Assembly: GCF_014191715.1 (NCBI RefSeq)
Contig: NZ_JACHWY010000001.1
Location: 806,001 to 870,000 of the forward strand
Direction of reading: 5' to 3'
From: Litorivivens lipolytica
Lineage (GTDB): Bacteria; Pseudomonadota; Gammaproteobacteria; Pseudomonadales; Spongiibacteraceae
DNA length: 64,000 nt
The translations under genes were made by a program, and so were the position numbers. Shown here piece after piece: positions 44,069-48,287 of this stretch. The stretch's first letter is position 1, and the number at the start of each line of letters is the position of its first letter. The notes beneath the pieces are model-generated. The model was not told the DNA's origin and did no database searches. It saw nothing but the letters and a program-made list of their open reading frames with translations.

Positions 44069-46807
44069 ATGAAAAGAATGCTCATTAATGCCACGCAGCC
44101 CGAAGAGTTGCGTGTCGCCCTCGTCGACGGTCAACGGCTGTACGACCTCGACATCGAAAACCGCACCCGCATCCAGAAAAAAGCCAACATCTACAAGGGC
44201 ACCATTACCCGCGTAGAGCCCAGCCTTGAAGCCGCCTTTGTCGACTTCGGCGCCGAGCGCCACGGCTTTCTCCCCCTGAAAGAAATTTCCAAAGAATACT
44301 TCTACCGCTCACCCTCCGAGGTGGATGGCCGCGTCAAAATCAAGGATGTGGTCAAGGAAGGCACCCAGGTTATCGTTCAGGTAGAAAAGGAAGAACGCGG
44401 CAACAAAGGTGCGGCACTGACTACCTTTATCAGCCTCGCCGGCCGCTACATGGTGCTGATGCCGAACAACCCCCGCGCTGGTGGGATTTCCCGTCGCATT
44501 GAAGGTGAAGAGCGCACCCAACTGCGCGAAGCCCTGAGCAACATCAATATTCCTGACGGTATGGGCGTCATTGTGCGCACCGCCGGTATCGGCCGCTCCT
44601 CAGAAGAGCTGCAGTGGGACCTGGACTACCTCCTCCACCTGTGGAGCGCGGTGACCAAGGCCTCGGAAGAAAACAAAGCCCCCCTGCTGATCCTGCAGGA
44701 AAGCAACGTCATTATCCGCGCGATTCGCGATTACCTGCGCGACGATATTGATCAAGTTTTGATCGACAACGAAACCTCCTTCGAAGAAGCCAAAACCTTC
44801 GTCGAGCAGGTGATGCCCCAGTACAAGAACAAGATCCGCCTCTACAAAGACCCGGTTCCCCTGTTCAACCGCTACCAGATTGAAAGCCAGATCGAGTCGG
44901 CCTTCCAGCGCGAAGTCAGCCTGCCTTCCGGCGGTTCCATCGTGATTGACCCGACCGAAGCGCTGGTGTCTATCGATATCAACTCCGCCCGTGCCACCAA
45001 AGGCGGTGATATTGAAGAAACCGCACTGCAAACCAACCTGGAAGCCGCCGACGAGATCGCCCGTCAGCTACGCCTGCGCGATATCGGCGGCCTGATCGTC
45101 ATCGACTTTATCGACATGATGGCGCCGCGTAACCAGCGCGAAGTAGAAAATCGCATGCGCGATGCGCTTGAGCCGGATCGCGCCCGTGTTCAGCTGGGTC
45201 GCATCTCCCGCTTTGGTCTGCTGGAAATGTCCCGTCAGCGCCTGCGCCCCTCACTGGGCGAAACCAGCGCCAAGGTCTGCCCGCGCTGTGAAGGTCACGG
45301 CACCATTCGCGACACCAAATCTCTGGCCCTCTCCATCCTGCGCCTGCTGGAAGAAGAGGCCAACAAAGAGAAAAGCGCAGAAGTCCGCGCCATCGTGCCG
45401 GTCACCGTCGCCTCTTACCTGTTGAACGAAAAGCGCCAGCCGATTCACGATATCGAAAAGCGCTCCGACGTTCGCGTAGTGGTGATTCCGTCAATCAATC
45501 TGGAAACGCCCCACTTTGAAGTTCAGCGCCTGCGCGAAAGCGATGTAGGTGAAGAAGAATTGGTGAGCTACAAAATCACCAGCGAACTGGAAAACGCTCA
45601 GGAAGAACAGGAAGCCAAGGACGAAGAGCTGCCACCGATCCAACAAGCTGCTGTTTCCGGTTTGTCACCTCGCGCTCCGGCGCCCCAGCGCACCGAAGCT
45701 CCTGCTGCTCAGCAGCCTGCTGCCGCTGCGCCAGCGCCGTCCGCAGCTCCGCAGGAAAGCAGCTCCGGACTGTTCAAGAAAATCGTTTCCAGCCTGAGCA
45801 CCTTCTTCCAGGCCGAAGAGATCGACGTTCGCTCTGCCCCGGTCGCTAAAGCCCAGCCTGAGCCGGAACCCGAGCAGGAATCCAGCAAGCCACAACAGCG
45901 TAACCGCAACCGTAATCGCAACCGTAATCGCAACCGTCGTGACGGTGGTGACAACCAGAACCGCAATCGCAGCCGTGATCAGGAAAACGAAGGTCGTTCT
46001 GATAATCGCCGTGGCGGCAATCGCGACAACAATGCGGAGAATCGTCAGAACGACGACAACGCATCCAAGGCTAACAACCGCAATGACAACGCGGGCGAAA
46101 ACAACTCTCGCGACGAAAATCGTCCGCAGCGCCGCCCGAGCAACCGCAAGCCACGTCAAAAAGGCGAGCGCAAGCGCGAAGAAGCGATCGCCCTGCCCGC
46201 AGATGCAGTTGCCGAAGTTGAACAGCCCAAAGCTGACAACACAACTGCCGAAGCCCCTGCAAAAGAAGCGGTAGAGCCTAAAGCGGCTGCGCCTGCTGTT
46301 GAAACAACAGCAGAAGCAAAAACTGAGGCCAAGCAAGAACAAGCTGCTTCAGAAAACACGTCTTCTGAAAGCAAGCCTGCCGAGAGCAAGGCTGAGCAAG
46401 TCGAGAAGCCCGCAGTCACAGAAGCACCCGCAGCAAGCGAAGCAGAAACCGCTAAAGCTGAAGCACCAGCTGAGACTGCAGAAGCAAAACCGGCTGCCAG
46501 CGAAGCGGCTCCCGCTGCAGAGGCTCCCAAACCCGCTCAGCAGGAACAACCTGCTCCAGCGGCAAAAGCCAAACCGACCGTTAGCGAAACAGCCAGTGAA
46601 CCTGCACCAAGCAGCAAACCGGTTGTTCCGCCGAGCGCTCGCGGCCGCGCCGCCAACGATCCACGGGAAAACCCCAAGCCGGTGACCAGTGTCGATATCG
46701 CCACCACCTCACCCTTGCCCGCCGAGCTGGATCGCAGCCTAGTGGCTTCACCCGACCCCGATCGCGTAATTCCACCCCGAGCCAGCAACGATCCAAGAAA
46801 TCGTTAA
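44069..46807 (+). CDS. rne: Ribonuclease E
   Basis: Essential endonuclease and degradosome scaffold on the inner membrane. The 912-aa protein has an S1 domain (about 36-118), the DNase-I-like catalytic site Asp303 ([12 protein letters not shown]) and Asp346 (IVIDFIDM), and the zinc link Cys404-Cys407 (VCPRCEGHG), all at the E. coli numbering. An amphipathic membrane anchor [14 protein letters not shown] lies about 567-580. The C-terminal half is disordered: an Arg-Asn repeat, then Ala/Glu/Pro-rich sequence, ending with two NDPR motifs ([16 protein letters not shown]). These could be partner-binding short motifs. Confidence 0.97.
45898..45940 (+). repeat. Tandem 12-bp Asn-Arg repeat in rne
   Basis: About three copies of CGCAACCGTAAT-type 12-mers code for alternating Arg and Asn (about residues 611-623), part of an arginine-rich RNA-binding region of the RNase E scaffold. 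Copies differ by only a base or two, so copy number may vary between strains. Confidence 0.7.
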
Positions 46808-46817
46808 AAGCAAAAAG

Positions 46818-46856
46818 AAAAGGCCAGCTAATAAAGGAGCTGGCCTTTTTTATTTT
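46818..46856 (+). terminator. Intrinsic terminator of rne
   Basis: GGCCAGCT/AGCTGGCC (46822-46845) with an 8-nt loop, followed by TTTTTTATTTTAT, starts 11 bp after the rne stop. Confidence 0.9.
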
Positions 46857-46883
46857 ATGAACCAAAATTCCGCACCCAGTCTA

Positions 46884-47047
46884 GGGCCGCGCCGGGCGCA
46901 GGCCGCGAATCAGTCAGGGCATGCAGTCTCACGGCCGAAAACGTCAGGGTTGTCGCGAGGACTGTCTGAGCGCACCGCGCGAGTTCCGCAGCGCTGGCGT
47001 TTTCGGCCGTGAGATGCCCGATTCGCGGCCTGCGCCCGACGCGGCCC
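46884..47047. repeat. Long GC-rich imperfect inverted repeat
   Basis: The left arm (46884-46947, 64 nt, starting GGGCCGCGCC) and right arm (46994-47047, 54 nt) are near-perfect reverse complements: about 52 of 54 positions pair once two 5-nt insertions in the left arm are bulged out. The loop is about 46 nt. It lies between two convergent genes, with no open frame. Candidate MITE, REP-like mobile element, or cruciform/transcription-blocking structure. Copy number elsewhere in the genome is unknown. Confidence 0.8.
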
Positions 47048-47079
47048 GGACTACGAAGCTCTATATCGTCCCACCCTAA

Positions 47080-48078
47080 TCAAAGCCCCGCCAAAAACGT
47101 CAATATCTTCTCATTGACCAAAAGCGGCTGCTCCTGCTGCACCCAATGTCCCGCCTCAGGCAGCAACTCACACACCCGAAGGTCCGGCACTCGATCCTTC
47201 ATAACCGACCAACAGTCCGGTGCGCTCATTGCAATCACCGGATCCTGCTCACCGGCAAGAAAACACACCGGCACAGCAACATTTTGGCCGAGATAACGCG
47301 CATTCAACTGCCAATTGATATCAGACACTCGATACCAGTTCAGTCCACCTCGAAACCCGGTTCGCGAAAAAGCCTCCGCATAAACCGCAAATTCCGCCTG
47401 ACTCAACCAGGGCCACGGCAGCATTTCATTCACGGGCGGCAAGATCTCGATATAACCTTGACCATCCTTGCCCGAGCCAAAACTCGACAGCAGATCACCC
47501 TTGGCGCTCAAGGCCCAGTAAAGCCGCCGCAAAAACGTACTGCTATTGTCATCCAACTCGGATTCCGCGAGACCCGGTTCCTGAAAATAGTGGCCGTGCA
47601 AAAAGTGCGATTCGGCTACCTTGGCAAACTGCACAGAGGGCAACACATTCGCCGACAGATCTCCGCGCCGCCCGTAGTAATCAAAATCGTAAGGCACACT
47701 AAGCACAACCAAGCCATCAACACAGTCGGGCTCGTGCAAGGCCATATTCCACACCACCGGCGCCCCAAAATCCTGACCGACAAAAACCGCTGAGGATTTT
47801 CCGAAATGCGAGAGCACCGCAAGAAGATCCCCGCGAATATGATCCAGCGAATAATCGGCAATCGCCTGTGGCGCATCGCTGTCACCGTAACCGCGCATAT
47901 CCAGAGCCACAGCAAGATAACCCCGCTTGGAAAAATACCGCAGCTGATGACGCCAGCTATAGGCCAGACCGGGAAAGCCATGACAGAAAATCATCATAGG
48001 CCCTTCGCCGCCGGATTCGTCTGACACCAGACAGGAAAGCTTTACCCCGTCCTTTGAGTTGATCGTTTTTCGTTCCAT
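47080..48078 (-). CDS. Alpha/beta hydrolase, epoxide-hydrolase-like
   Basis: A cytosolic alpha/beta-hydrolase of about 332 aa. Seen: the oxyanion motif FCHGFPGLAYSWRHQLRYF (His-Gly-x-Pro), ALDMRGYGDSDAP, the nucleophile in VFVGQDFGAPVVW (Asp, as in epoxide hydrolases and haloalkane dehalogenases) and a C-terminal His in LPEAGHWVQQEQP. Asp nucleophile plus the Gly-Phe-Pro loop favours epoxide hydrolase; the lid Tyr pair cannot be checked with certainty. The ATG at 48076-48078 gives the usual N-terminus; a TTG at 48129 is an alternative. Monocistronic on the minus strand. Confidence 0.82.
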   Translation of the reverse strand: MERKTINSKDGVKLSCLVSDESGGEGPMMIFCHGFPGLAYSWRHQLRYFSKRGYLAVALDMRGYGDSDAPQAIADYSLDHIRGDLLAVLSHFGKSSAVFVGQDFGAPVVWNMALHEPDCVDGLVVLSVPYDFDYYGRRGDLSANVLPSVQFAKVAESHFLHGHYFQEPGLAESELDDNSSTFLRRLYWALSAKGDLLSSFGSGKDGQGYIEILPPVNEMLPWPWLSQAEFAVYAEAFSRTGFRGGLNWYRVSDINWQLNARYLGQNVAVPVCFLAGEQDPVIAMSAPDCWSVMKDRVPDLRVCELLPEAGHWVQQEQPLLVNEKILTFLAGL

Positions 48079-48197
48079 GAAAGGACTCGCTACGCAATTG
48101 TCTAAGCCAAACTCTACTTTATGCTCCAAAAGTCACTGAATCGTCTGTTCTTATGCTTGTTTGTAAAAACGAGCTCTGTATAATTGCCGACTGCCGC

Positions 48198-48287
48198 GGA
48201 GGGGTGGCAGAGTGGTTGAATGCACCGGTCTTGAAAACCGGCGTGGGTTAACGCCCACCCAGGGTTCAAATCCCTGCCCCTCCGCCA
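48198..48287 (+). tRNA. tRNA-Ser (anticodon UGA)
   Basis: GGAGGGG at 48198 pairs with CCCCTCC before the encoded GCCA at the 3' end. The anticodon stem CCGGT/ACCGG (CGGTC-TTGAAA-ACCG region) holds the loop CTTGAAA, giving TGA, which reads UCA. The long variable arm (GTGGGTTAACGCCCACC) is typical of a class II serine tRNA. Total 90 nt with CCA. Confidence 0.97.

Follow-up and report, generated by a model that had tools for sequence, protein, structure and literature searches.

A long hairpin downstream of rne in Litorivivens lipolytica as a probable solo member of a patchily distributed chromosomal foldback family whose tip is constant and whose arms vary

Integron attC sites lie in direct order beside the integrase, and copies of ERIC, YPAL and NEMIS have a common arm sequence. 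The latter three are named as MITEs or palindromic repeats in the part of PMC3733652 covered here, where REP elements are given as 20–40 bp long, with a GTAG or CGTC tag in most of them, and TIRtrons as TIRYT (RAYT-like) genes situated between long, repeated and sometimes self-complementary TIRs. RAYT genes flanked by inverted palindromes have also been described (PMC2817692, part covered), as have intrastrand triplex motifs, the main one of which is G/C-rich and of a sequence other than ours (PMC4666352, part covered).

The hairpin considered here lies in a 64,000-nt stretch of the Litorivivens lipolytica genome (contig NZ_JACHWY010000001.1, positions 806,001–870,000; hereafter the window), between two convergent genes named from inspection of their translations, rne (44069–46807, + strand) and an alpha/beta-hydrolase-like ORF (47080–48129, − strand). 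A previous reading of the DNA made without database searches (the sequence-only reading) had pointed to a long inverted repeat between these genes, well beyond a terminator in size, and both the repeat search and RNAfold bear this out. The near-perfect repeat extends over 46878–47052 in the fold; the inverted-repeat search returns one arm pair of 33 nt (46884–46916/47015–47047, 91% complementary) and another of 26 nt (46927–46952/46989–47014, 88% complementary), and in the RNAfold structure 46878–46882 also pairs with 47048–47052. Folding of the region 46860–47070 yields −135.7 kcal/mol; dinucleotide shuffles average −86 (sd 4.58; z −10.85), and none of 200 folds as well. An intrinsic terminator was rejected as the identity of the element, whose stem exceeds 50 bp and which has no T run after 47052; an intrinsic-terminator-like hairpin of rne with a T run can be read in the sequence immediately 5′ of it (approximately 46820–46852, + strand). 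A tRNA gene is located just past the hydrolase ORF (48198–48284; Rfam RF00005, 61.9 bits).

Along the + strand, the element comprises an outer 5′ arm (46878–46911), a 5-nt bulge AGTCA (46912–46916) that recurs in all four further copies of the genome, a segment made of GGGCA, a second 5-nt bulge (about 46922–46926) and the inner 5′ arm (46917–46954), the tip GCGAGGACTGTCTGAGCGCACCGCGCGAGTTCCGCAGC (46955–46992), the inner 3′ arm (46993–47014), and a TGCCCGATTC segment with the outer 3′ arm (47015–47052). These arms are defined by the fold and the inverted-repeat pairs and, in the case of both inner arms, by covariation as well. A short flank with TACGAAGCTC, read from the sequence (47053–47079, + strand), reaches the end of the intergenic region and resembles the outer flank GAGCTTCGTAGCTC of another copy (L031). 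The two 5-nt bulges noticed earlier both exist, with the correction that they are on the 5′ side only; the 46-nt loop that had been drawn contains some pairing of its own and is what stays conserved from one copy to the next. Pairing is maintained in the segment 46917–46954 and its sequence varies from copy to copy. The constant part lies in the former loop and has the form GCGAGGACTGTYTGAGCG-N-GCGAGTTYCGCAGC; its core conserved between copies (46960–46992) was identified by an exact match, and the same pattern in other genomes makes the tip the hallmark of the family. The AGTC of the bulge could pair with the GACT of the tip as a pseudoknot.

Blastn against the same genome finds five related hairpins including that of the window, the others being at 626 kb of C1, at 42 kb of C2 and, twice, at 366 kb of C3; these four relatives exclude a single-copy host feature. 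A further weak match (L032) has no inverted repeat and was dropped. All five share a plan of outer arm, 5-nt 5′-side bulge AGTCA, inner arm and common tip, the last being exact in four of them and carrying one mismatch in the other (L029), and their arms are largely complementary within a copy and differ in sequence between copies. At the same rne–hydrolase site, the congener G002 has both outward-facing elements and no cargo, whereas the congener G001 has no exact tip genome-wide, and the 861 nt read before its hydrolase contain a different ORF and no element. The repeated element suggested by the sequence-only reading is confirmed, and the finding that it had named as contrary, a single copy conserved in all relatives, is not what we see, since the element is repeated in the genome and variable between relatives. 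That reading did not notice the constant tip, the covariation of the arms, the outward pairs or, in other bacteria, the exchangeable cargo. The window copy, whose inner arm marks it as right-hand in type, is a single element with no cargo and is probably one half of a former pair.

Several further features accompany these copies. A second palindromic repeat, GTCATTGCGA...TCGCAATGAC, presumably of a type common in several bacteria, adjoins copies at L029:1395–1480 and L030:1571–1655, and in L030 it occupies the space separating two hairpins. In comparison with L029:1505–1705 and L030:1675–1875, flanks like GAGGGTGGAGGGGG...GTAGTGGCACCC lie close together in L031:1545–1605, so that L031 looks from its sequence like an empty counterpart, as if devoid of the right-hand hairpin. 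In G002, TIR-like ends TTCGCARAT..GAGTGGAAGG bracket the double element in inverted orientation (L216), and none were seen around the window copy.

In form, the element is similar to REP/BIME in being extragenic and palindromic, in retaining the palindrome despite sequence change and in its frequent inverted pairs; it differs from them, as described in the covered part of the literature, in its much longer hairpins, in a constant tip in place of the tag and in its 1–19 copies among the matches listed. A GTAG/CGTC REP was rejected, as neither tag is common to the copies and what they share is the apical tip. The REP-like nature previously suggested was not sustained in that form either, there being no such tag and no linkage to a RAYT/Y1 transposase. 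With MITEs and ERIC, YPAL and NEMIS our element shares the form of an intergenic imperfect palindrome of 100–200 bp, but here it is the tip that is common and the arms that differ.

The element has the clear covariation of a conserved nucleic-acid structure, one absent from Rfam 15. Both sides have changed with pairing kept in 12 of the 61 pairs predicted for the five copies from the window's genus. A larger set of 57 gap-free copies comes nearly all from the family, presumably Gallionellaceae, of the Candidatus Ferrigenium MAG G024 (the G024 family below). In this set 97.9% of cells are paired, 7 of 11 arm pairs show both-side changes, and 37 cells are changed on both sides, compared with 6.6 ± 2.2 after shuffling (0/500); when the partner is shifted by 1–3 columns, paired cells drop to 26–40%. 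These copies were chosen for one common arm offset from 99 sequences with the 33-nt core, which excludes other spacings, among them that of the window's genus, covered by the 12/61 count. Tip pairs are invariant in the 57 copies, but the copies had been found by their tip. In this regard, a fixed-length tip search of four genomes with up to three mismatches allowed gave 20 perfect tips out of 21, and one with 2 mismatches, in two genomes, and nothing in the two others, because their tips are of 33 nt and the search tip was of fixed length. Imperfect tips have one mismatch in L029 and in one G002 copy and three in L272 and L355, and the tip of G177 is degenerate.

Isolated stem mismatches on the tip strand are G.T in 23 cases and A.C in 6 (p 0.0023; 201 elements, distinct contexts). 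A looser count gives 99 G.T and 74 A.C but is raised artificially by near-identical copies and an internal loop that is conserved, so that the G.T/A.C ratio depends on the filter. The excess of G.T suggests that one strand, that with GGACTG, acts when folded, although strand-specific mutation might mimic the effect.

At gathering score, none of 4227 Rfam families matches over the element in the window stretch, in a set of 15 loci or in another of 4 loci, and sub-threshold matches to it are weak and of microRNA type only. A search of the PMC literature, which largely leaves aside subscription journals and preprints, with tip strings and element descriptions returned no paper on the element by title or abstract; the papers among the matches listed for six second-hairpin strings are unrelated by title. 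The hairpin family is thus apparently undescribed.

Its occurrence across bacteria is patchy. An exact scan with the pattern GACTGTYTGAGCGN{0,20}GCGAGTTYCGCAGC over 84,980 species genomes matched at least 118 stretches. Whole-genome searches gave 1–19 exact copies per motif-bearing genome among the matches listed, where the reversed pattern used as a control does not appear; exact-tip searches overlook divergent members, and most of the genomes are drafts. Record titles among the listed matches include Gamma- and Betaproteobacteria, Nitrospira, Bacteroidales, Coriobacteria, Campylobacteraceae, Endomicrobium, Uhrbacteria and Desulfobulbaceae, labels that we take to represent about eight phyla. 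Most matching records are MAGs, hence some taxon labels may be wrong, and matches with no MAG label include Thauera, Sulfuricella, Chitiniphilus, Iodobacter BJB302, Aquabacterium CECT 9606, Niveibacterium and Barnesiella An22. Nearly all copies among those listed carry the tip at the end of a long hairpin whose arms are its own. The tip is present in 8/21 genomes of the window's family, in 78/150 of the G024 family and in 2/398 of the phylum, own genome included. The window copy finds no match in E. coli genomes. Spread by phages or plasmids was rejected, since these searches came up near-empty: a viral contig collection contains no stretch with the exact tip pattern, a 391-nt copy from G013 matches no plasmid or phage, and with a 91-nt copy 50,697 phages give nothing and 72,556 plasmids a single partial match of 26 nt.

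The apical stem is longer in some taxa (G205, G209, G200, G208), in some with alternating GA/GC steps (GAGCGAGCTTGCGAGCGAG) from which tandem sheared G.A pairs could arise. GCGAAGC, a very stable DNA mini-hairpin, is part of the short tips.

Copies are frequently arranged in pairs that point away from each other. By-eye counts of the matches listed give 36 outward pairs among 43 with neighbours less than 3 kb apart and none facing; all 25 listed pairs of the G024 family within this distance are outward, and elsewhere there are 11 outward, 7 same-strand and no facing pairs. Spacings are either about 190–330 nt, with no room for a gene, or 0.8–2.3 kb, and the two ends of one pair can have differing arms. 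Outside the G024 family most copies are solo, and pairs are gene-less (about 190–330 nt) or enclose ordinary genes, such as AFG1_ATPase in L371 and an FTCD-like gene, recognised by eye, in L065. No family recurs among 92 neighbour genes in other taxa (Radical_SAM leads with 4/92, and there is one Phage_integrase); these 92 were drawn from 121 script-selected neighbours, the 29 omitted being very large, very small or dropped by no rule. On the same 92 genes PADLOC matched 57 models, nearly all with one member each and some clearly housekeeping relatives.

On their outer side, elements of the G024 family finish with a terminator-like hairpin that has a T-rich stretch. Behind the main hairpin they carry a second one, GGTTACTTTTTCTTGG...AAGAAAAAGTGAC (e.g., L051:1460–1510). 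Of 240 downstream segments examined over all taxa, 147 have a pyrimidine stem, 74 of them with an exact mirror of the arm upstream, and such mirror copies make an intrastrand pyrimidine triplex possible. This potential, given by mirror plus inverted repeats, is what the second hairpin shares with described triplex motifs, yet neither it nor the tip appears in the covered parts of PMC4666352. The left outer flank of L111 (about 560–780) and the right outer flank of L315 break at the same second-hairpin point (CTTGGCAAGACCGG) and continue with other sequence, and these breaks may be insertion-sequence junctions.

One site studied in the G024 family lies between sucB and a yhdH-like gene. We compared 20 regions upstream of the yhdH-like gene, of which 6 are loaded, 7 empty and 7 unclassifiable. 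The six loaded species carry six different cargos beside hairpins (G024, G027, G138, G191, G177, G026), mutually unrelated by blastp (best match of 19 residues, E 0.5–0.7); in G191 and G026 the contig ends before sucB, and their cargo was placed as upstream of yhdH, the right element is degenerate in G177, and only the left element is seen in G026. Seven species are free of tip and cargo, with sucB and yhdH matches 3–455 nt apart (G146, G189, G160, G152, G173, G096, G148); G148 retains remnants of the outer parts, and G146, G160 and G152 have one terminator-like hairpin, as found at both outer edges of loaded sites. Among the unclassified regions, G162 and G190 have one tip each, G108 is tip-free over 922 nt, and G080, G194, G195 and G181 have no recognisable sucB in the stretch. 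At other loci mutY adjoins the cassette (L085, L111, L266).

In the G024 family, 24 pairs are loaded, with one ORF in 18 and two in 6, as called by a simple longest-ORF rule. Cargo ORFs number 32, namely 30 in loaded pairs and two at sucB–yhdH, and 30 of them were scanned with Pfam and PADLOC, those outside the scan being L084:3436–3789 and L314:1660–2208. The cargo of L268 matches AAA_21 and RloB in Pfam and AbiLi and AbiLii in PADLOC, a PARIS-like pair; other Pfam matches are Mrr (L311), Mrr_N (L085), Abi_alpha (L306), DUF4145 (L308), T5orf172 (L309), RES (L316), DUF3800 (L103 and, at one further site, L365), 8xMP (L051) and DUF4236 (L305). Many cargos are orphans with no Pfam match, and no transposase, integrase or recombinase appears among the Pfam matches of the 30 scanned ORFs. 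PADLOC matches 9/30 cargo ORFs (E ≤ 1e-3), several of the models being candidate defence families only, compared with 3/10 genes flanking the pairs, all three of them MutY-like proteins that match one endonuclease model. By Pfam, these ten flanking genes are mostly housekeeping ones: three MutY-like, panC, plsY, tsaD, lnt, ilvD, a phospholipase, and one matchless at 1e-10. Some cargos are of defence type (AbiL, Mrr, Abi_alpha), but the raw PADLOC rates of cargo and flanks are equal, so that an enrichment in defence, which is not proven, rests on family identity and not on the count. A 25-nt leader box, ATAGGCAAAACAATTCGACTCCGGT (≤5 mismatches), is found in 15 of the 24 cassettes (e.g., L051, L085, L313), in all 15 upstream of the cargo gene and nowhere else in those loci; it could be a promoter, a regulator site or a recombination site. 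Unrelated genes with a common leader favour a cassette platform over chance neighbours.

Against this background, our element resembles TIRtrons, as far as their description was covered, in its long, sometimes self-complementary inverted repeats and moderately abundant families, but the genes between the repeats are unrelated cargos, and no Y1 gene was found there. It resembles integron cassettes and attC sites in its small accessory-gene units and in hairpins conserved in structure, variable in sequence and folded from a single strand, but the hairpins are inverted, occupy several fixed loci and have no integrase among the cargo Pfam matches. The element resembles a cassette border somewhat, but is assigned here to none of the REP/RAYT, TIRtron and integron families.

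Among the alternatives to a border function, a cis-acting RNA structure would be a two-sided terminator, insulator, mRNA stabiliser or RNase III substrate that protects the regions between genes, and pairs of it would insulate foreign genes with no role in movement. The G.T versus A.C polarity agrees with this notion, as do the outer terminator-like hairpins with a T-rich stretch in the G024 family and the small number of copies flanked by divergent genes (12 of the 98 for which both neighbours were called). Neighbour orientation, however, shows no clear preference: the upstream gene is on the same strand in 63 cases and on the opposite one in 49, and in co-directional regions 27 elements run with the genes and 34 against, all on crude ORF calls that place 25 of 133 tips inside called ORFs of more than 450 nt. 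As a pure terminator needs no constant tip, and occurrence is as patchy as 2/398, we regard an exclusively RNA-level role as unlikely.

Inverted arrangement, small cargos and filled plus empty sites could also be produced by a non-autonomous transposon or mobile insertion cassette with long TIRs, moved in trans by a DDE-type transposase to which the tip would offer a duplex binding site; the GAGTGGAAGG ends around one G002 copy would fit as well. Nevertheless, the arms covary and may differ within one pair, neither of which is needed for duplex recognition. Inverted ends and filled and empty sites are thus seen, but no transposase was found, the target-site duplications that the sequence-only reading advised looking for were not established, and the element is missing from viral contigs and represented by a single 26-nt partial match in 72,556 plasmids. 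We consider such a transposon decidedly unlikely.

A REP-like or TIRtron-like miniature element would be mobilised by a Y1/HUH transposase (RAYT, TIRYT) recognising the folded tip, with the pair as ends of the unit. RAYT genes with inverted palindromes and RAYT-like genes with long TIRs provide precedents in the covered parts of PMC2817692 and PMC3733652, and a folded single strand of fixed polarity suits HUH recognition. Against it, G009 and G013, both of the window's family and 99–100% complete, carry the motif with no PF01797 match at E ≤ 0.001, and 0 of 10 Y1 loci examined (20 matches listed) have the tip within about 1.5 kb on either side. Tblastn with 11 Y1-locus ORFs of the window's family, which may miss remote Y1 relatives, hits 1 of 272 element loci, a set in which loci partly overlap one another. 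This sole match lies outside the L302 pair, and no RAYT-like gene is among the cargo Pfam matches, on which grounds a TIRtron was rejected. Two genomes, assessed by eye with sampled GC skew, show no replichore bias (4/7 and about 7–8/14), and the GTAG tag is missing; mobilisation by a Y1 enzyme therefore appears very improbable. The least probable of the explanations weighed is passive flanking homology, modelled on the minimal mobile elements of Neisseria, in which natural transformation and homologous recombination in conserved host genes would exchange the cassettes: different cargos between the same host genes (sucB–yhdH; mutY beside L085, L111 and L266) agree with it, but the constant tip, the covarying arms and the outward pairing would be left unexplained.

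The findings presented here lead us to propose, as a reading just on the probable side, that the window hairpin is a solo member of a chromosomal foldback family with an invariant tip and complementary, free arms, whose outward pairs edge gene slots. According to this model, the tip would be held nearly invariant while the arms change freely yet remain complementary, and the element would work through one strand, that bearing GGACTG, folded as RNA or single-stranded DNA. Outward-facing pairs would mark the edges of a slot which, in the G024 family, would hold accessory genes, one or two at a time and exchangeable, in many cases downstream of a common leader, at fixed sites between housekeeping genes, and the hairpins might serve as borders for cassette gain and loss. 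The window would then hold a slot with no cargo, in which one hairpin of an earlier pair is left. Family membership by the tip, arm covariation, outward pairs, variable cargo at fixed sites and empty sites are directly observed. Only the shared tip connects the window copy with the cassettes, since the arms are not homologous, and the lack of a transposase in our searches, together with pairs elsewhere that are gene-less or surround ordinary genes, counts against the role of borders.

More tentatively, and short of an even chance in our judgement, the whole may constitute a previously undescribed gene-cassette platform, in which outward hairpins with a fixed tip would bound constant slots where accessory genes, several of defence type, are exchanged behind a leader, the hairpin being patchy over several phyla and found in no viral contig, and the window holding an emptied, half-lost slot. 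If the hairpins are indeed borders of swappable slots, the tip of about 33 nt would provide a sequence handle for small gene cassettes, orphan cargos included, and would find cassettes that searches for defence islands and prophage hotspots may miss. It would also raise the testable question of which enzyme, if any, reads a hairpin of constant tip and free arms. Even on a plainer reading, our results add a covarying conserved structure outside Rfam 15.
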